DNA of 64,000 bases from Cupriavidus taiwanensis (GTDB lineage Bacteria > Pseudomonadota > Gammaproteobacteria > Burkholderiales > Burkholderiaceae). The notes beneath the pieces are model-generated. The model was not told the DNA's origin. It saw nothing but the letters and a program-made list of their open reading frames with translations, and ran no database searches. Position 1 is the stretch's first letter. Every line of letters begins with the position of its first letter. A program made the translations under genes and the position numbers. The stretch is from the NCBI RefSeq assembly GCF_900250075.1, contig NZ_LT977071.1, positions 186,001-250,000 on the forward strand, given 5' to 3'. Below, one piece after another: positions 33,319-42,767 of this stretch.

Positions 33319-35580
33319 TTACGAAGCAGCGCCCCTGAGACGCAGCGCATTGGCAATGACCGAGGCCGAACTCAGGCTCATCGCCAGCGCCGCGATCATC
33401 GGCGACAGCAACAGGCCCGTCGCGGGATACAGCGCGCCGGCCGCCAGCGGCACGCCGAGGGCGTTGTAAATGAACGCAAAACCGAGATTCTGCTTCATGT
33501 TCCGAATGGTCGCGTGCGAGAGTTGCCGGGCGCGGGCGATGCCGCGCAAATCCCCTTTGACCAGCGTGACCTGGGCGCTGTTCATCGCGACATCGGTGCC
33601 GGTTCCCATGGCGATACCGACATCCGCCTGCGCCAGCGCCGGCGCGTCATTGATGCCGTCGCCGGCCATGGCGACCACCGCGCCGGACTGCTGCAGGGAT
33701 TTGACAAGTTCCAGCTTGTCGGCCGGCTTGACCTCGCCATGGAATTCGTCCACGCCAAGTTTTGCGGCCACCGCTCTGGCGGTTGCGATGCCGTCGCCAG
33801 TGGCCATGACGACACGGATGCCTTCTTCACGAAGACGCTCCAGCGCCTCGGGCGTGGTGATTTTGACCGGGTCGGAGACGGCGAGCAGGCCTGCAAGCTT
33901 GCTGTCGACCGCGAGATACATGACGCTGGCGCCTTGCGCACGCAATGTGTCCGCCTGCGCTACCAGTGCTTCGGTGGCCACGCCCTCGGCTTCCATGAGC
34001 GCGGTGTTTCCGATCGCAATCTTGCTGCCTGCCAACGCGCCCCTTACCCCAATGCCCGAACTCGACTCGAAGCTTTCCGGCTTGTCCAGCCGCAGGCCTC
34101 GACTACGGGCGGCTTCGACGATCGCCGCCGCCAGTGGGTGTTCGCTGCCTTGATCCAGGCTGGCTGCCAACCGCAGCACGTCTTCCTCGGTAAAGCCATT
34201 GGCGCCGATCGCGCGCTCGAATACCGGCCTGCCCTCGGTGAGCGTCCCGGTCTTGTCCACAATCAGGGTATCGACCTTGCGCAGGTTTTCGATTGCCGCG
34301 GCGTCGCGGAACAGCACGCCCCCGGACGCCCCCTTGCCGCTTGCCACCATGATCGACATCGGTGTGGCCAGGCCCAGCGCGCAAGGACAGGCGATGATCA
34401 GCACCGCGACGGCATTGATCAGGCCGAACACCCAACCCGGCTCGGGACCGAACAGTCCCCACGCGACCAAGGTCAGCACCGCGATGCCGATGACGCCGAC
34501 GACGAAGACGCCGGCAACCTTGTCCGCCAAGCGCTGCATCGGCGCCTTCGAGCGCTGCGCCTGCGCAACCATCTGGACAATCTGCGACAGCACGGTCTGC
34601 GAGCCGACCTTTTCGGACTGGATCACCAGGCTGCCCGATGTGTTCATGGTGGCGCCGATGACACGGTCGCCGGCGCGCTTGGTGGTAGGAATCGGCTCGC
34701 CGGTGATCATCGACTCGTCGACGGCGCTGGTGCCTTCCGTCACGACCCCGTCGACCGGCACCTTCTCGCCGGGCCGCACGCGCAGCAGGTCGCCAACATG
34801 CACATGGGCCAGGGGTACGTCTTCCTCGATGCCGCCGGGACCGATGCGTCTCGCCGTCTTGGGCGCCAGCCCCAGCAGCGATTTGATGGCGGCCGAGGTC
34901 TGGGAGCGGGCCTTCAGTTCAAGCAGCTGTCCCAGCAAAGTGAGGGAGATGATCACTGCCGCAGCCTCGAAGTAGACGCCGATGCGGCCATGCTCGGCAA
35001 ACTCCTGCGGAAAGGCGGCCGGAATGACGGTCGCAACGACGCTGTAGAGATAGGCGGCGCCAGTGCCGATCCCGATCAACGTCCACATGTTGGGACTGCG
35101 GTTGACGATCGACTGGAAACACCGGACGAAGAACGGCCACCCTGCCCACAGCACCACCGGCGTCGACAAGGCAAGCTCGACCCGGCCCTGCGTCGACAGG
35201 TCCATCCAGCCAAGGCGATGCCCGAACATCGCCAGTACGAACACCACTCCGGTCAGCGGAAGCGTCCACCAGAAGCGGCGACGGAAGTCCGCCAGTTCCG
35301 GGTTTTCATCCTCATCGAGTTCCGGCATCAACGGTTCCAGCGTCATGCCGCATTTCGGGCAGTTGCCCGGATGGTCCTGGCGGATTTCCGGATGCATCGG
35401 GCAGGTATAGATCGTGCCCTCGGCGGGAGGCTGCGCCGGGGCTGGCTCGGTCCCGGTGCCGGATTGCTCATGAGCATGAACATGGTGATGCGCATGCTCG
35501 TGATGATGGGCGTGGTCACCCTGTGCGCCACCGTGGCGTCCAGGCATCTTGGCATCGCGGTCGCTGCTCGTCCTGTTCAT
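33319..35580 (-). CDS. copA: Copper-translocating P1B-type ATPase with His-rich N-terminus
   Basis: 753 residues from ATG 35580. The N-terminus is His-rich (residues about 17-40), then a heavy-metal-binding domain ([21 protein letters not shown]) replaces the usual CxxC HMA domain. Ion-path and catalytic motifs are intact: [27 protein letters not shown] and [25 protein letters not shown] plus MSLSSASV in the last helices match Cu(I) pumps. It exports Cu(I) to the periplasm, feeding the divergent cus efflux genes. The promoter is of the CueR type. Confidence 0.92.
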
Positions 35581-35921
35581 CCTGGTTCCCTTGGTTGTTG
35601 GGCCTGCCATCACTGGGAAGTCCGCCCTCGCGCCCAAAGACGGCAGCTTAGGCCTTCCCATGGTAGTAAGGTCAAGGGCGACCAGGGCGAAAACCAGCGG
35701 CCGTACCGGTCCAGGGTACGGGGCCGTCCCTCACCAGGACGTTACGCAACCATTACATCCCGGTAAGGTGCAACGAGCGTTGTCGGTCGGGTCTTCGCTG
35801 GCGTCGACGGCGCCAGGGGCCACGCGGCGATGATGGAACAGACGGACGACAAGCTCCTCCAACCGGCTTATGCCGCACGCAGTCAAACGCTGCTACCATT
35901 CCGGCAACCCAGGTATCTCAA
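35581..35921. promoter_or_regulatory. Divergent copper control region, 341 bp
   Basis: Besides the CueR-type promoter at 35645-35675 this region contains a direct repeat TTAC (35742-35745) and TTAC (35753-35756), one helical turn apart in GTTACGCAACCATTACATC. That is the spacing expected for OmpR/CopR-type response regulators. No clear sigma-70 promoter for the plus-strand genes was recognised. Confidence 0.35.
35645..35675 (-). promoter_or_regulatory. MerR/CueR-type promoter of the copper ATPase gene
   Basis: On the minus strand the -35 TTGACC (35670-35675) and -10 TAAGCT (35645-35650) are separated by 19 bp, the overlong spacer typical of MerR-family promoters. The spacer region holds a dyad CCTTACTACCATGGGAAGG (35653-35671) of the CueR pattern CCTT-N11-AAGG. 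The regulator gene is not in the window. Confidence 0.7.
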
Positions 35922-36320
35922 GTGCGTACTACTATTCGTCGGCTCTGGCTTGCCGCCTTCCTGCTGAGCGCTTTCCTGACAGTGCAACTGGCAGCGGCGG
36001 CGTATGCGTGCGAGGGCAGCCGGTATTCGCTGAGCGCGACGGAAGAGATGGCGGGCATGACTGAAGCCTGCCCCGACATGGCAATGGAACACGCCGGGCC
36101 AGGCGTACATGACGGGCTATGCCAGGAGCATTGCCAGTTCGGCTCGAAGTCGGCCGACCATGCCACGCCTCAGATTCCCGCCTTCCATCCGGTGCTGGTC
36201 AATGTCGTGGTGCCCGCGCCGATACCGGTCATGGCACATCGCCTGGCCGCTCCCCGCGATGCGATTCCCCGGGCGCCGCCACGCCCCCTCCCCATCCTTC
36301 ACTGCTGTTTCCGAACGTAG
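35922..36320 (+). CDS. Small exported Cys/Met/His/Pro-rich protein, CutF/CruR-like copper leader candidate
   Basis: 132 residues from GTG 35922 (AGGT upstream). A signal peptide (RRLWLAAFLLSAFLTVQLAAAAYA) is followed by Met/His-rich sequence (MAGMTEACPDMAMEH), a CxxxC motif CQEHC at residues 67-71 and a proline-rich C-terminus (IPRAPPRPLPILHCCFRT). It precedes cusCBAF. CutF of Rhodobacter capsulatus and CruR of Bordetella, as I recall them, are copper-sensing upstream proteins with Cys pairs, and CutF has a proline-rich stalling end before a Shine-Dalgarno-masking stem. The same arrangement is seen here. The stop codon TAG is the foot of the stem at 36319-36390. A plain periplasmic copper-binding role is the alternative. 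Confidence 0.7.
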   Translation: MRTTIRRLWLAAFLLSAFLTVQLAAAAYACEGSRYSLSATEEMAGMTEACPDMAMEHAGPGVHDGLCQEHCQFGSKSADHATPQIPAFHPVLVNVVVPAPIPVMAHRLAAPRDAIPRAPPRPLPILHCCFRT

Positions 36321-36390
36321 CCTCCGCAGCAACGCCTGTTGTCGTGCCCTGAGCCATCGGCTCCAGGGTCGTCGTTGCTTTGCGGAGGCT
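36319..36390 (+). promoter_or_regulatory. Long hairpin masking the cusC Shine-Dalgarno
   Basis: AGCCTCCGCAGCAACG (36319-36334) pairs over all 16 bases with CGTTGCTTTGCGGAGGCT (36373-36390), leaving only a 2-nt bulge (36379-36380). GGAGG (36384-36388), the cusC ribosome site, is fully inside the stem, and the cusC ATG follows two bases later. An inner hairpin CCCTGAGCC-ATC-GGCTCCAGGG lies at 36347-36368. The upstream gene's stop codon (36318-36320) overlaps the 5' arm. Confidence 0.85.
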
Positions 36391-36392
36391 TT

Positions 36393-37700
36393 ATGCATTT
36401 GCACTTATCCACCAAGTGCGGGCGCCGGCTGGCGCTCGCGCTCACGCTGCTTGCCGTGATCCATCCGGCATGGGCGGAGTCCGCGCCAGCCCTTTCCCTG
36501 CAGGAAGCGCTCGCGCTCGCCGCGGCGCGTTCGGCCGATGCCGAGACCTCGCGCTCGGCAGTCCAGTCAGCCATCGAGATGGCTGTGGCCGGCAGGCAGA
36601 TGCCGGACCCGGTCCTGAAGGTCGGCGTCAACAACGTCCCGGCGAATGGCCCGGACCGGTTCTCGCTGGGGACCGATTCGATGACCATGAGGTCGATCAG
36701 CCTCATGCAGGAATTCACACGCCCGGCGAAGCGCCAGGCCCGCGCGGAGCGCTTCGAGGCCGAGGCGTCGTCGGCCGAGGCGCAACGTATGGTGGCGCTG
36801 GCCAACGTGCAACGCGGCACCGCCACGGCGTGGCTGGAGCGCTGGTATGCGGAACGCGCGCACGAGCTGCTCGCCGAACAGGCGCAATCGATCAAGCTGT
36901 TGATCGATGCGGCACAGGCCGCCTATCGCGGCAACCGCGGCTCACGCGCCGAGATCCTGGCCGCCCGGATCGAATCGCAGCAACTGCAGGATCGCGAAGA
37001 CGAAGCCCGCGCCGCGGTCGCCTCGTCCCGGGCGATGTTGCGCCGGTGGGTCGGCGATGCGGCAGCGTTGCCGCTGGCCGAGCGTCCCGCGCTCGATGCT
37101 CCGGCCTGGCTCGATACCCTGGATGCCGCCGGCGCCGCGCAGCTGCCAGACCTCGCTGCCGCGCAGGCCCAAGCCGGCGTGGCCGAGGCCGAGAGCCGCG
37201 TGGCGCGCGAGAACAAGGTGCCGGATGTCAGCGTCGAGCTGATGTACAGCCAGCGCGGCCCCGCCTACTCGAACATGGTGTCGCTGAACGTCTCGCTGCC
37301 GCTACCTTGGGACCAGGAACATCGCCAGGACCGCGAACTGGCCGCCAGGCTGGCGCAGGCCAACGCTGCGCGGGCGCAAGCCGAATCGGTACGCCGTGGC
37401 CTGATTGGACAGCTGCGCGGCAAGCAGGCCGAACTGCAACTCAGCCAGACCCGCCTGGAGCGCTATCGCAATGCCACGTTGCCGCTGGCGAAGGCACAAA
37501 CCGAGGCGGCCCTGAGCGCCTATCGCACTGGCGCCGGCAGCCTGGCCGCCGTGGCGGAGGCCAGCCGCAAGGCGCTCGAGCTGTCGCTCGATCGGCTCCG
37601 GCTGGAGGCAGCGACCGCCAGGCTCTGGGCCGAGCTCACGTTCCTGATGCCGTTACCGACCGCCGCGCAAGCCATGCCGCCGCAAGGAGCCCAACCATGA
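36393..37700 (+). CDS. cusC: Outer-membrane efflux protein CusC/CzcC (TolC family)
   Basis: 435 residues from ATG 36393, decided by GGAGG four bases upstream. A signal peptide ends near PAWAES. The TolC-family alpha-barrel repeats are seen in LSLQEALALAAARSADAETS and the coiled-coil helices, ending in AEASRKALELSLDRLRLEAATARLWAELTFL. It forms the outer-membrane channel of the copper efflux complex. Its ribosome site is sequestered by the hairpin at 36319-36390, so translation should depend on translation of the upstream small gene. Stop overlaps the cusB start (ATGA). Confidence 0.88.
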   Translation: MHLHLSTKCGRRLALALTLLAVIHPAWAESAPALSLQEALALAAARSADAETSRSAVQSAIEMAVAGRQMPDPVLKVGVNNVPANGPDRFSLGTDSMTMRSISLMQEFTRPAKRQARAERFEAEASSAEAQRMVALANVQRGTATAWLERWYAERAHELLAEQAQSIKLLIDAAQAAYRGNRGSRAEILAARIESQQLQDREDEARAAVASSRAMLRRWVGDAAALPLAERPALDAPAWLDTLDAAGAAQLPDLAAAQAQAGVAEAESRVARENKVPDVSVELMYSQRGPAYSNMVSLNVSLPLPWDQEHRQDRELAARLAQANAARAQAESVRRGLIGQLRGKQAELQLSQTRLERYRNATLPLAKAQTEAALSAYRTGAGSLAAVAEASRKALELSLDRLRLEAATARLWAELTFLMPLPTAAQAMPPQGAQP

Positions 37701-39241
37701 AGCAAACCGCGATGGCACGGACCCTGGTGGTTCTGCTCGTGCTGGCGAGCGCTGGCGCTGCCTATTATCTCGGCCATCAACAGGGGCGCCGGCAGATCGC
37801 CGCGTCGGACACGCCGGCCAGCGGCACCGGGGCGGCGAACCTGAAGGCCGGCGATATCGATCCGGGCACGGGCAAGCGCATCCTCTACTGGCATGATCCG
37901 ATGGTGCCGGGCCAGCGCTTCGACAAACCCGGCAAGTCGCCCTTCATGGATATGCCGTTGTCGCCCGTGTACGAGGAAGCGGGTGGCAGCGCGACCGTCA
38001 CCGTTGACAGCCGCGTGGCGCAGAACCTTGGCGTTCGCACGGCCGAGGTCAAGACGGGCCGGCTGGCCTCCGCGTTCGAAGTTCCGGGCAATGTTGCGAT
38101 CGACGAGCGCGGCATCGAAGTGCTGCAGGCCCGTACCAGCGGGTTCGTCGAGCACGCGTATGCCAGGACGACGCTGGATCCGGTGCGCAAAGGCCAGCCG
38201 CTGGCACAGATCTATTCGCCGGAATGGGTCACTGCGCAAGAGGAATACCTGGCGGTGGTCCGCATGGGCGCAACCCTGCAGGGCGATTTGCGCGAAGCCG
38301 CGATGGCCCGCATGCGGCAGGCCGGCATGACCGACAGCCACATCCGCCTGGTGCAGGACACCGGCAGGCTGCAGCCGCGGCTTGCCATCACCAGTCCGGT
38401 GGATGGGATCGTCACCGAGGTCGGCGCGCGCGACGGCATGACGGTCTCCCCCGGCACGACGCTCTTTCGCCTTGCCAGCCTGGCGACGGTATGGGTACTG
38501 GCCGAGGTGCCGGAGACCTATGTCTCGCGGCTACGGCCCGGACAGGCGGTGTCCGCGCTCGCGGCCGCCCTGCCTGGACAAGCGCTGCCCGGCAAGATCG
38601 ACGCTATCCTGCCCGACATCAACCCCGGCACCCGTACTGTCAGGGTGCGGATCGAACTGCAGAACAAGGGCCGTCAGCTGTTGCCAGGCATGTTCGTGAC
38701 GGCCCGCTTCGAGGCCGCAGCTGGCACGGACCGGCTGCTGGTCCCGACCGAGTCGCTGATCCGCACCGGCACGCGCACCATCGTCATGGTGGAAACCGGT
38801 CCCGGCGGGTATAGCCCGGTCGAGGTCAAGACTGGCGCAGCTTCCGGCGGACAGACCGAAGTGCTCGAGGGCCTCGAGTCCGGACAAAAGGTAGTGGTCT
38901 CCGGCCAGTTCCTGCTCGACTCCGAAGCCAGCCTGCGCGGTGCCACGCAGCGCATGACCGCAGCACCAGCCGCGCCGGCAACCGCCGCCGCAGGCCCGGA
39001 GCACGAAGGCACCGGACGCGTGGAGGCGGTCAGCGCGCAAAGCATGACGATTTCCCACGGGCCGATCCCGTCGGCCAGTTGGGGGGCCATGACCATGGAC
39101 TTTGCCGCACCCGCTGCCGGCATGCCGCAAGGATTCAAGCCCGGCGACCGTATCCGCTTTCGCTTTCAACTCGACCGCGACGGTGCGGCGACGTTGTCAT
39201 CGGTGGAACGCGCAGCTTCTGCCCCGGGAGGCCGGCCATGA
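37697..39241 (+). CDS. cusB: Periplasmic adaptor CusB with fused C-terminal CusF domain
   Basis: 514 residues from ATG 37697 (AAGGAG upstream; 4-bp overlap with cusC). An N-terminal membrane anchor is followed by a heavy-metal-binding segment ([29 protein letters not shown], residues about 62-91), the lipoyl/alpha-hairpin/beta-barrel adaptor core, and from about residue 430 a CusF-like domain ([19 protein letters not shown]). The fused domain keeps the His, Trp and Met-x-Met of the CusF Cu(I)-pi site. It links CusC to CusA and may hand copper directly to the pump. Confidence 0.92.
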
Positions 39242-42200
39242 TCGCGCGGCTTATCCTGGCTTCGATCCGCAACCGCTTCCTGGTGCTGCTGGCCACGGTC
39301 GTGCTGACCGCGTGGGGCTTGTGGGCCGCGCGCAGCACGCCGCTCGACGCGCTGCCAGACCTGTCCGACGTGCAGGTGATCATCCGCACGCCGTTTCCCG
39401 GCCAGGCCCCGCAGATCGTCGAAAACCAGGTCACCTATCCCCTTACCACGACGATGCTGTCCGTGCCCGGGGCCAGGACCGTGCGCGGCTATTCGTTCTT
39501 CGGTGACTCCTATGTCTATGTGTTGTTCGAGGATGGCACCGATCTCTACTGGGCGCGCTCGCGCGTGCTGGAATACCTGAACCAGGTGCAATCCCGGCTG
39601 CCCGCCGCTGCCAGACCGGCCCTGGGCCCGGACGCGACCGGCGTAGGCTGGATCTACGAGTACGCCCTGGTCGACCGGACCGGGCAGCACGACCTCGGCC
39701 AGTTGCGTGCGTTGCAGGACTGGTTCCTGCGCTTCGAGCTCAAGTCGCTGCCCAATGTGGCCGAGGTCGCGTCGCTGGGCGGCATGGTCAGGCAGTACCA
39801 GATTGTCCTGATGCCGGACCGGCTGCGGGCCTATAACCTGTCGCAGGCCAAGGTGCTGGCGGCGCTCAAGGGGGCGAACCAGGAGACCGGCGGATCGGTG
39901 CTGGAGCTGGGCGAAGCCGAATACATGGTGCGCGCCAGCGGCTACCTGAAGACGCTCGATGACTTCCGCCAGATCCCGCTGCTCACCAGCGAGGCCGGCA
40001 TCCCGGTACGGCTGGGAGACGTCGCCACGATTCAGCTCGGCCCGGAAATGCGGCGCGGCATGGCGGAACTCGACGGCCAGGGCGAAGTCGCGGGCGGCGT
40101 CATCGTGATGCGCTCCGGAAAGAATGCGCTGGAGACCATCGACGCGGTCAAGGCCAGGCTCGCCTCCTTGCAAACGAGCCTGCCCAAGGGCGTGGAGGTG
40201 GTGACGACCTATGATCGCTCAGCGCTGATCCAGCGTGCGGTGGATAACCTGACTGGCAAGCTGATCGAGGAATTCATCGTGGTGGCGCTGGTGTGCCTGG
40301 TGTTCCTGTTCCACCTGCGGTCCGCGCTGGTCGCCATCGTCTCGCTGCCGCTCGGCGTGCTGGCCGCGTTCCTGGTGATGCGCTACCAGGGCGTGAACGC
40401 CAACATCATGTCGCTTGGCGGTATCGCCATCGCCATTGGCGCAATGGTCGATGCGGCGGTGGTGATGATCGAGAACGCCCACAAGCACCTGGAACGCTGG
40501 CACGCCGACCATCCCGAACGACCATTGAGCGCACAGGAGCGTTGGCGCGTCACTGGCGAGTCCGCGGCGGAAGTGGGCCCGGCCCTGTTCTTTTCGCTGC
40601 TGATCATCACGCTCTCGTTCATTCCCGTATTCACGCTGGAGGCGCAGGAGGGGCGGCTGTTCTCGCCGCTGGCGTTTACCAAGACCTATTCCATGGCGGC
40701 TGCGGCCGGCCTGTCGGTCACGCTGGTGCCCGTCCTGACGGGCTACATGATTCGCGGCAGGATTCCATCGGAACAGGCCAATCCGCTCAGCCGCTGGCTG
40801 ATCCGCGGCTACCAGCCCTTGCTTGCCAGAGTACTGGCGTACCCCAAGACCACCATTGCGATCGCGGTACTGCTGCTGGCGGCAACCGCCTGGCCCGTGA
40901 TGCGCATCGGCGGCGAGTTCATGCCGCCGCTCGACGAGGGGGACCTGCTGTACATGCCGTCGGCGCTGCCGGGCCTATCCGCCGGCAAGGCAGCGCAGCT
41001 GTTGCAGCAGACCGATCGGCTCATCAAGACCGTGCCCGAGGTGGCGACAGTATTCGGCAAGGCCGGCCGCGCCGATACCGCCACCGACCCGGCGCCCATC
41101 GAGATGTTCGAGACCACCATCCAGTTCAAACCGCGGGACCAGTGGCGCGCGGGCATGACGACCGACAAGCTGGTGGAGGAACTGGATCGCGTGGTCAGGG
41201 TGCCTGGCTTGTCGAACGTCTGGGTGCCACCGATACGCAATCGCATCGACATGCTCGCCACGGGGATCAAGAGCCCGGTCGGCATCAAGGTGGCCGGCAC
41301 GGACCTGAAAGAGATCGACAGGCTCGCCACAAGGATAGAAGAGGCGGTCAGGACGGTACCGGGAGTTACCTCGGCGCTTGCCGAACGTCTCACCGGCGGC
41401 CGCTATATCGATGTGGATATCGACCGCGGAGCTGCTGGCCGGTACGGTCTCAACATCGAGGACGTGCAGAGTATCGTGTCATCCGCGATCGGGGGCGAGA
41501 ATGTCGGTGATGTGGTCGACGGGCTGGCGCGCTTTCCGATCAACGTCCGCTATCCGCGCGACTATCGTGATTCCATCGAGCAATTGCGCGCCCTGCCCAT
41601 CGTCACCGACAAGGGTCTGCAGATCACGCTTGCGGACGTGGCGCGCATCGAGGTCGTGCAAGGCCCGCCGATGTTGCGCAGCGAGAATGCACGCTTGTCC
41701 GGCTGGATCTATGTCGACATTCGCGGACGGGATCTCCGTTCAGCCGTGCGCGAGATGCAGGCCGTCGTGGCAAAGACGGTGCCGATGACGGCGGGGTATG
41801 CGCTGAGCTGGTCAGGACAATTCGAGTACCTGGAACGGGCCACGGCCAAGCTCAAGCTGGTGGTGCCGTTCACGCTGCTGATCATCTTTGTGCTGCTTTA
41901 CATGGTTTTCGGCCGCCTGGATGAGGCGCTGCTGATCATGGGCACGCTGCCCCTTTCGCTGATCGGCGGCTTCTGGCTGCTCTATCTGCTGGGCTATAAC
42001 CTCTCCGTGGCTGGCGTCGTCGGCTTCATTGCGCTGGCCGGCGTGGCGGCGGAATTCGGTGTCATCATGCTGCTCTATCTGAAACAAGCCTGGAATGAAC
42101 GCGAAAACCGTGGCGAAACCACGCAGTCGGCACTTCTCGACGCGATCCAGGAAGGAGCGGTGCAGCGCGTGCGCCCCAAGGCCATGACGGTCGCGGTAAT

Positions 42201-42408
42201 CCTCGGCGGCCTGATCCCCATCATGTGGTCGCATGGCACGGGCTCGGAAGTGATGCAGCGCATTGCCGCACCGATGGTCGGCGGCATGGTGACTGCCCCA
42301 TTGCTGTCCCTGTTCGTCGTGCCGGCGGTGTATTGGCTGATGCGCCGACGGCAGACCCGAGTTCCCCCAGTCCCTACCCACTCTCCACTTCAGGACGAAT
42401 CGCAATGA
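39238..42408 (+). CDS. cusA: Cu(I)/Ag(I) RND efflux pump CusA
   Basis: 1056 residues from ATG 39238 (GGGAGG upstream; ATGA overlap with cusB). The heavy-metal RND family is clear from [44 protein letters not shown] and [18 protein letters not shown]. The three methionines that line the CusA copper path are in conserved contexts: [19 protein letters not shown] and [10 protein letters not shown]. This favours Cu(I)/Ag(I) over the divalent Czc substrates. Proton-driven inner-membrane trimer. Confidence 0.93.
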
Positions 42409-42767
42409 AACCCGGCAAGACTCTCGCACTCGCGCTCACCATCGTCGCCGCCTCGACCGCCTCCACCGCATTCGCAGCGGGATCCATGGACAGCCACAAC
42501 ATGCACGGCATGGACAGCAGGGCACCCGCGGCGTCAAAGCAGGCTTCCCAGCCTGTGCCAGCCGAGATCAGGAAGATCGATGCGTCGGCCGGCAAGGTGA
42601 CGCTCAAGCACGGCCCCATCGAGAACCTCGGCATGTCCGCCATGACCATGGCGTTCCCGGTCAAGGACCGCGCCTCGCTGAGGAATTTCAAGGAGGGCGA
42701 CGCGGTTTCCGTCACCTTCGACAAGATCGACGGCAAGCCGACCGTCATCGACATGCAGCGCAAGTAG
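42405..42767 (+). CDS. cusF: Periplasmic copper chaperone CusF (Trp-less variant)
   Basis: 120 residues from ATG 42405, overlapping cusA by ATGA. A signal peptide ends at AFAAGS; then a Met/His-rich linker ([11 protein letters not shown]) and the small OB-fold. The metal site reads [20 protein letters not shown]: His and Met-x-Met are present but the Trp that caps Cu(I) in E. coli CusF is missing, in contrast to the domain fused to CusB. It delivers periplasmic Cu(I) to the CusBA complex. Confidence 0.9.

Follow-up and report, generated by a model that had tools for sequence, protein, structure and literature searches.

How could copper switch on a complete efflux system if the RNA of the first gene in the operon hardly changes? 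This question is raised by a locus in a 64,000-nucleotide stretch of Cupriavidus taiwanensis DNA (contig NZ_LT977071.1, positions 186,001 to 250,000; hereafter the window), where a small open reading frame (ORF) resembling cusD precedes cusCBAF-like genes for a resistance-nodulation-division (RND) efflux pump. In Cupriavidus metallidurans, a reference organism for metal resistance, the operon beyond cusD is reported not to be expressed without metal and no copper-sensing two-component genes lie nearby (PMC9045368, PMC10304878), though the signal seems to be Cu(I) in the periplasm. We consider it likely that some leader-based copper control operates at the junction between the small ORF and cusC. 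It is somewhat probable that this control takes a more specific form, in which a leader of the type represented by CutF of Rhodobacter capsulatus senses copper during its own export and gates translation of cusCBAF.

A leader ORF ends in a predicted hairpin that masks the cusC Shine-Dalgarno sequence

The elements of the leader and of the junction are as follows.

35922..36320, forward strand: cusD-like leader ORF, 132 amino acids, GTG start, TAG stop at 36318-36320
35922..36011, forward strand: hydrophobic export signal, residues 1-30, ending AYAC (read from the sequence; helix 2-31 in a structure model)
36120..36134, forward strand: CQEHC, putative Cu(I) site, residues 67-71 (C67, H70 and C71 invariant in 32 distinct proteins of the genus)
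36270..36281, forward strand: RAPP, residues 117-120, a possible first arrest site (R[AGP]PP in 32/32 distinct proteins of the genus)
36285..36317, forward strand: stop-anchored tail, P122 plus the last ten codons (LPILHCCFRT), delimited by conservation of [PR]P-x10-stop
36318..36320, forward strand: TAG stop, second and third base paired in the stem
36319..36334, forward strand: 5' arm with the CCTCC anti-Shine-Dalgarno (36321-36325), from RNA folding
36343..36371, forward strand: upper hairpin, from RNA folding and compensatory pairs
36373..36390, forward strand: 3' arm, from RNA folding
36384..36388, forward strand: GGAGG, the cusC Shine-Dalgarno sequence, wholly paired by RNA folding

The original prediction for this locus, made from the DNA letters, had described an exported 132-residue protein with a CQEHC motif and a TAG stop that lies in the foot of a 16-bp stem, with a 2-nucleotide (nt) bulge, enclosing the entire GGAGG of cusC. 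The ORF, the motif and the C-terminus (PILHCCFRT, then TAG) are present exactly as described, and RNA folding reproduces the stem. Positions 36319-36334 pair with 36373-36378 and 36381-36390, leaving the bulge at 36379-36380, and the minimum free energy of the hairpin is -43.7 kcal/mol (z -4.27; none of 200 dinucleotide shuffles was as good). The spacer from the leader stop to cusC is 72 nt. The CutF-like traits that had been recognized, namely an export-like N-terminus, a CxxxC motif, a proline-rich end and a masking stem containing the stop codon, are likewise borne out. What must be corrected is the position of the proline motif, which had been placed within the last few codons. RAPP, whose PP are residues 119-120, ends 12 residues before the C-terminus.

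Conservation of the leader and its junction within the genus

A single-sequence search of 60 genomes, the window's own included, recovered 38 copies of the leader in 26 genomes, every one of them of this genus; none of 24 genomes from other genera matched. All 38 copies end with TAG. Their start codons are GTG (22), TTG (11) and ATG (5), and the use of GTG or TTG in 33 of 38 perhaps limits translation of the leader. The distance from CxxHC to R[AGP]PP is 45 residues in 36 copies and 46 in two. Among the 32 distinct proteins, all of which carry C..HC, this segment is 45 residues long in 31 and 46 in one, while the segment from AYAC to CxxHC takes ten different lengths (34-49), and the mean pairwise identities of the two segments (0.55 and 0.47, respectively) are not very different. 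From RxPP to the end there are 16 residues in 24 proteins and 15 in eight, and the second Cys of CxxHC lies 60-62 residues from the end. Five cysteines (C30, C50, C67, C71 and C128) are invariant.

The intergenic region measures 66-73 nt in the genus. Of the 30 distinct junctions, 29 pair the Shine-Dalgarno sequence with the stretch that starts at the stop codon, and all 30 have a stop-codon base in a nearby pair. Five of the 18 predicted pairs change on both sides (two in the lower stem, three in the upper), although one of these five is also broken in eight junctions. The lowest pairs of the stem are almost invariant and hence carry little information by themselves.

Judged by homology and by gene order before cusCBA, the leader belongs with the CusD/SilD group of Cupriavidus. 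One copy (L036), 51% identical to the window leader, has the coordinates of cusD of strain CH34, and another (L011) has those of silD on pMOL30; published C. metallidurans data therefore apply to members of our alignment. L011 is an exception in having a 5' arm without the CCTCC complement, together with the 46-residue spacing and RPPP. L012 shares these three features with it, so the two are natural variants to set beside cusD.

The leader occurs in many genera, with arms matched to each other

A profile search of 399 genomes of the order, from 164 genera, found relatives in 27 genomes of 20 genera. Of the 26 matches outside the genus, 25 were analyzed (the match in G236 came without a locus and was omitted). 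The Shine-Dalgarno sequence pairs with the 25 nt that begin at the stop codon in 22 of these 25 loci, CxxHC is present in 21, and in 23 the position of the second Cys is 58-65 residues from the C-terminus; this position could not be placed in L061 and L068, and the residue there is not Cys in L044, L047 and L053. Twenty downstream proteins were tested, giving 18 OEP, one CusF and one CusB-type. The leader thus stands before a cusF gene in L061 and before a CusB-type gene in L068 (same genome as L060), instead of before cusC.

Whether the arms of each junction are matched to each other was examined with a swap test on 19 representatives, one from each of 18 other genera plus that of the window, using the first locus per genus. 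Native arms have a mean pairing energy of -18.06 kcal/mol, compared with -12.56 kcal/mol for permuted partners (z -7.31; 0 of 20,000 permutations), and this match is centered on the Shine-Dalgarno sequence and the stop codon. Compensating changes thus maintain the masking pairing across genera. Ten windows of the same sequences, six from the leader and four from the downstream gene, served as controls (z -1.80 to +1.22), and it is solely through these that phylogeny is accounted for. L051 was dropped because its leader protein and junction are identical to those of L048; the two genomes are assigned to different genera, which suggests recent transfer or a taxonomy artifact.

The most uniform feature of the distant proteins is their end. 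A [PR]P pair followed by exactly ten residues and the stop is present in all 24 distinct distant proteins (PP in 22), and most tails finish with FRI, FRN, FLI or LRI. Because the search profile includes the tail, this count is biased. In L046, L049, L050, L056 and L064, however, the profile match ended well before the tail and the spacing is nevertheless kept. The same arrangement is found in 28 of the 32 genus proteins (L004, L018, L019 and L037 change one residue of the pair) and in 49 of 56 loci with organism names. Codons for I, L and R in the tail vary synonymously in the genus, and the constraint is therefore on the peptide. Several distant tails have lost the HCC seen in the genus while the spacing to the stop is retained. 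RxPP has a narrower distribution, being present in every genus protein, in none of the 24 distinct distant proteins, and in seven of the 15 named loci inspected, of which six are from Ralstonia and one from Methylibium.

The named loci, 57 in all, were compared for arms in 15 cases and for the tail in 56 (L125 runs off its contig), with start codons chosen by script. Six of the eight loci labeled Ralstonia were compared and all have strong arms (-23.7 to -28.2 kcal/mol). The other nine come from Methylibium, Piscinibacter, Rhizobacter, Pelomonas, Roseateles, Mitsuaria, Rubrivivax, Caldimonas and one metagenome-assembled genome; the Rubrivivax and Caldimonas copies are identical over the compared stretch, and in all nine the second Cys lies 65-66 residues from the end. 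Seven named Burkholderiales loci (L118, L120, L122-L124, L126 and L127) have tails ending VLRN or VFRN with the second Cys 66 residues from the end, most carry another PP shortly before the stop-anchored one, and several have weak arms; perhaps they represent another mode.

A sample of 397 genomes from the phylum gave matches in 16. Twelve further loci from this sample (11 from other orders of the class and one from the genus) include nine with the tail, and stems are found in several, not all, of them. The one from the genus (L148, genome G008) is a divergent second relative without the tail spacing, and our script found no long ORF within 260 nt downstream of it.

Conservation of the stem and of the CxxxC and proline features in orthologous loci, on which the original prediction depended, holds in the genus alignment, in the swap test and in the distant loci. 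The hairpin is more than a product of chance, since many genera share the stem, the placement of the stop and the tail. GC-rich intergenic DNA often forms strong hairpins, and a chance hairpin without function might be expected on that ground, but the z-score, the conservation of the stem and the swap test refute this in the main and leave it a negligible probability.

Only a ribosome at the end of the leader is predicted to open the stem

We modeled accessibility of the Shine-Dalgarno sequence by folding, codon by codon, the RNA free of the ribosome, whose cover was set to 15 nt past the first base of the P site, which we take to be the footprint. Accessibility is near zero in 29 of 30 junctions when no ribosome is present or when one stands at RAP|P. 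An increase is seen only for P sites four codons or less from the stop. The values for the window's own junction are 0.00 up to five codons before the stop, 0.03 at four, 0.38 at three and two, and 0.27 with the stop codon in the A site.

These values bear on the role of RAPP. The CruR protein of Bordetella pertussis has been shown to arrest at RAPP in vitro with Pro3 in the P site and Pro4 in the A site, and RAPP and RGPP are described as strong and generally avoided arrest motifs (PMC12992588). A CruR-like arrest on the window leader would place the front edge of the ribosome near 36291, about 27 nt short of the stem. RAPP therefore cannot open the stem directly, and both this geometry and the near-zero accessibility rule it out in that role, while a pause at the tail or the stop could do so. 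The earlier proposal that a ribosome on the last codons frees the cusC site is thus upheld in the model for the last three to four codons and fails for a RAPP stall. A pause in those codons would be needed, and the conserved stop-anchored tail appears to be a better candidate for causing it than RAPP. Furthermore, residues past an arrest point cannot influence that arrest, and so conservation of the tail argues for a function with the ribosome at the end of the leader.

Published RNA data fit a switch at the leader

In unchallenged CH34 cells, cusD RNA is reported at 291 nucleotide activities per kilobase of exon model per million mapped reads (NPKM), whereas cusC, cusB, cusA and cusF are at 1.7, 2.0, 1.7 and 2.3; silD and silC are at 129 and 4.0 (PMC11647585). 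From these values, RNA falls 171-fold from cusD to cusC and 32-fold from silD to silC. A metal mix containing copper changes cusD 1.70-fold, compared with 14.0-fold for cusC, 12.2-fold for cusB, 14.2-fold for cusA and 21.3-fold for cusF, and it induces silC 3-fold (PMC11647585). Under acute copper, cusDCBAF genes are all up "with the exception of cusD," and sil is without response (PMC7563307). A lacZ insertion behind cus led to periplasmic Cu(I) being named the most likely cus regulator (PMC10304878). These data fit a leader switch. The absence of the anti-Shine-Dalgarno from the silD leader (L011), taken with the low induction of silC and the lack of a sil response to acute copper, fits a weakened switch, although this is one case only and silC RNA still lies 32-fold below that of silD.

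A leader that may read copper on its own exported chain

The mechanism we propose has its experimental precedent in CutF (PMC9973294). Cu(I) would bind CxxHC as the motif emerges, about 60 residues from the peptidyl-transferase center, on the periplasmic side of SecYEG. The Cu(I)-bound chain would slow the ribosome at the stop-anchored tail, where it would cover the 5' arm, free the cusC site and allow translation to start. Without copper, the ribosome would leave quickly, the stem would close and cusC would go untranslated; its RNA would then be lost by polarity (through Rho or an RNase), such that only cusD RNA would accumulate. We infer copper binding, stalling, the stall site and the sign of the response at this leader. 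The CutF sign, in which copper prolongs the pause, is favored over the CruR sign, in which copper releases an upstream hold, because the conserved tail argues for a function with the ribosome at the leader end. If this is true, copper sensing by the leader on its own exported chain would account for induction of cusCBAF with cusD RNA staying near constant, and nascent-chain metal sensing would extend to whole efflux pumps.

Several observations weigh against this proposal. Opening of the stem is partial in the accessibility model: covering the 5' arm raises the median over 30 junctions only to 0.15-0.17 (to 0.24-0.38 in the window), and six of the 30 stay at 0.05 or less with the stop codon in the A site. 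RAPP, a proven arrest motif elsewhere, is misplaced for opening the stem directly. L042, L058 and L061 lack the masking pairing, L044, L047, L053 and L068 lack CxxHC, some relatives are without the tail spacing, and arms are weaker than -13 kcal/mol in five of the nine named loci outside Ralstonia. Moreover, CutF requires Sec, whereas 31 of the 32 genus leaders carry RR near the N-terminus and a Tat (twin-arginine translocation) lipoprotein signal has been predicted for CusD (PMC10304878); the N-terminus is compatible with Sec or Tat, either of which may be the export route. The metal-mix data are not copper-only, and antisense transcripts, which the C. metallidurans authors propose, could also cause the drop in RNA after cusD. 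Finally, older work cited in PMC7563307 found copper induction of silA, silC and silD, so silD differs from cusD in this respect.

The alternative that survives best is a hold like that of CruR, which we regard as unlikely. Here, a ribosome would arrest at RAPP, 14 codons before the stop, in the absence of copper, and with the stem still closed cusC would be off. Binding of copper to CxxHC would release the arrest, and ribosomes reaching the stop at the foot of the stem would turn on cusC by coupling. Such a hold would account for R[AGP]PP in all 32 genus proteins and in the six Ralstonia and the Methylibium loci, and for a CxxHC-RxPP distance that is held at 45 residues in 31 of 32 proteins while the preceding segment varies over 34-49, given that CruR also has 45 (PMC9426467). 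The strength of RAPP and RGPP as arrest motifs, the in vitro arrest of CruR and the closed stem of our model with a ribosome stalled at RAP|P are all in line with it, and an arrest relieved by copper would have the right sign for an exporter. What it leaves unexplained is that the distant proteins lack RxPP entirely (0 of 24) while they keep the tail and mostly the stem, and that residues past the arrest cannot affect it, yet the spacing of the tail is conserved to the residue.

Rather improbable, in our judgment, is that CusD is a periplasmic copper carrier merely coupled to cusC, with induction arising from antisense RNA, an internal promoter or a two-component system. The authors of the C. 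metallidurans work weigh antisense RNA, a role of CopRS and CusD as a carrier. A copper-binding lipoprotein that hands Cu(I) to CusF and CopRS as a possible regulator have both been proposed (PMC10304878), antisense transcripts over cus have been reported, and the five invariant cysteines of the genus would suit a carrier. The published RNA data run counter to this idea, as cusD is barely or not induced and cusCBAF is, as does the loss of HCC from several distant tails that keep the stop-anchored spacing. There is also no confident fold past the signal helix (mean predicted local distance difference test score, or pLDDT, of 53, from a shallow alignment and thus weak evidence). A scan with the sigma-70 consensus found no promoter at the cusD-cusC junction, a weak null because the leader's own promoter was missed as well.

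We consider it very improbable that the primary event is Rho-dependent attenuation, with the hairpin protecting or exposing a Rho loading site and Shine-Dalgarno masking being secondary. CruR acts through Rho (PMC9426467), and the 171-fold fall from cusD to cusC RNA (291 to 1.7 NPKM) could be read in this way. However, the arm match is centered on the Shine-Dalgarno sequence and the stop codon, and the intergenic region of 66-73 nt is short compared with the 162 bp between cruR and bfrG.

Returning to the tail and a copper-prolonged pause, a broader proposal is possible, and we offer it tentatively. [PR]P-x10-stop might define a separate class of metal-gated arrest that acts at the stop codon and gates Cus-type pumps both in Burkholderiales and in further orders of the class. 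A RAPP hold would precede it in Cupriavidus and Ralstonia, making a leader with two checkpoints, and the leader might be the local regulator by copper that has been missing for cus in C. metallidurans.

Relation to known leaders

CutF (R. capsulatus cutFOG; PMC9973294, PMC8456105) shares with the present leader its small size, export, CxxHC, a proline-rich end and a masking stem, and translation of CutF is required for the next gene (PMC9973294). It differs in its PEPEGPPPRL terminus, where two residues follow PPP, and C73 is 45 residues from the end of its 118 amino acids; here, [PR]P is followed by ten residues and the second Cys stands 60-62 residues from the C-terminus. In addition, the target of CutF is a multicopper oxidase rather than an RND pump. 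CruR (B. pertussis bp2923-bfrG; PMC9426467) is alike in its RAPP, Cys pair and 45 residues between the motifs. Unlike the present leader, which has CxxHC (that is, CXXXC) and RAPP 12 residues from its end, CruR has CXXC and RAPP three residues before the end. It also has a 162-bp spacer and Rho termination, and copper switches its operon off; here, a 72-nt spacer masks a Shine-Dalgarno sequence and copper would be expected to induce the exporter. Arrest-peptide leaders such as SecM and TnaC likewise alter downstream gene expression by ribosome pausing, but here a metal carried by the exported part of the chain would provide the signal, and the element that is conserved has a fixed position relative to the stop codon. 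CusD and SilD of C. metallidurans, which belong to the same protein group, are uncharacterized or a proposed copper carrier in the accounts consulted (PMC9045368, PMC10304878).

The original prediction had not known of a description linking such a leader to an RND system. This is true only in part, since PMC9973294 reports CutF-like genes before CusC-, CzcC- and SilC-type genes, places OEP/CusC-type genes first among their neighbors and labels CusD and SilD in its network, while warning that the modes of action of CutF-like proteins differ. What does stand is that the available parts of that paper contain no test of the link. In the open-access literature searched, we found neither a test of a leader switch for cus nor a paper linking the cus data to one. 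The general idea was thus already known from the 2023 work on CutF, and what is new here is the stop-anchored tail. The variant as a whole (stop-anchored tail, stop in the foot of a covarying Shine-Dalgarno stem, and RAPP displaced upstream) was not found in the same literature; the CutF supplements, which lay outside the search, may show the tail in a logo.

Family assignment and genomic setting

No family in Pfam or NCBIfam matches the leader above its cut-off. The leader matches DUF2946 (Pfam PF11162) with 14 bits (E 0.09) against a gathering cut-off of 23.7 bits and so is not a member by that cut-off; 22 of the 32 genus relatives match it at E up to 1 (best 2.5e-5). DUF2946 itself has two matches in the window's own genome, both below the cut-off, and a profile search of that genome gave no convincing second copy of the leader (next best E 0.33). 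The structure model of the leader has a mean pLDDT of 53.1 with confidence in the N-terminal helix alone, which, because the alignment is shallow, is weak evidence. A search of 35500-36800 against Rfam, with E up to 1 allowed, gave no match. An intrinsic terminator at the cusD-cusC junction was rejected as unconvincing, the one weak five-pair site (36358-36371) lying within the hairpin and 0.4 such sites being expected by chance.

The surroundings of the leader are as follows.

33319-35661, reverse strand: divergent heavy-metal P-type ATPase (E1-E2_ATPase and HMBD domains)
35894..35899, forward strand: TACCAT, probable -10 element of the leader promoter (similar position in 12 aligned upstream regions)
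36393..37700, forward strand: cusC-like outer-membrane channel (OEP, E 1.1e-33)
37697..39241, forward strand: cusB-like membrane fusion protein (HlyD_D23 and CusF_Ec)
39238..42408, forward strand: cusA-like RND pump (TIGR00914 CusA/CzcA; ACR_tran)
42405..42767, forward strand: cusF-like periplasmic copper protein (CusF_Ec, E 4.1e-25)

The region common to the leader and the divergent ATPase contains a palindrome, TTACATCCCGGTAA, at 35753-35766, which resembles what we take to be the consensus of a CueR-type operator. It is exact in four of the 12 aligned upstream regions, has one change in a fifth and is absent before CH34 cusD. It was rejected as a copper box of the leader and more likely serves the ATPase. 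The transcription start site of CH34 cusD has been mapped 20 bp upstream of the gene (PMC9045368). Finally, the CusB-like protein encoded at 37697-39241 bears a CusF domain at its C-terminus, and the operon has a separate cusF gene besides.

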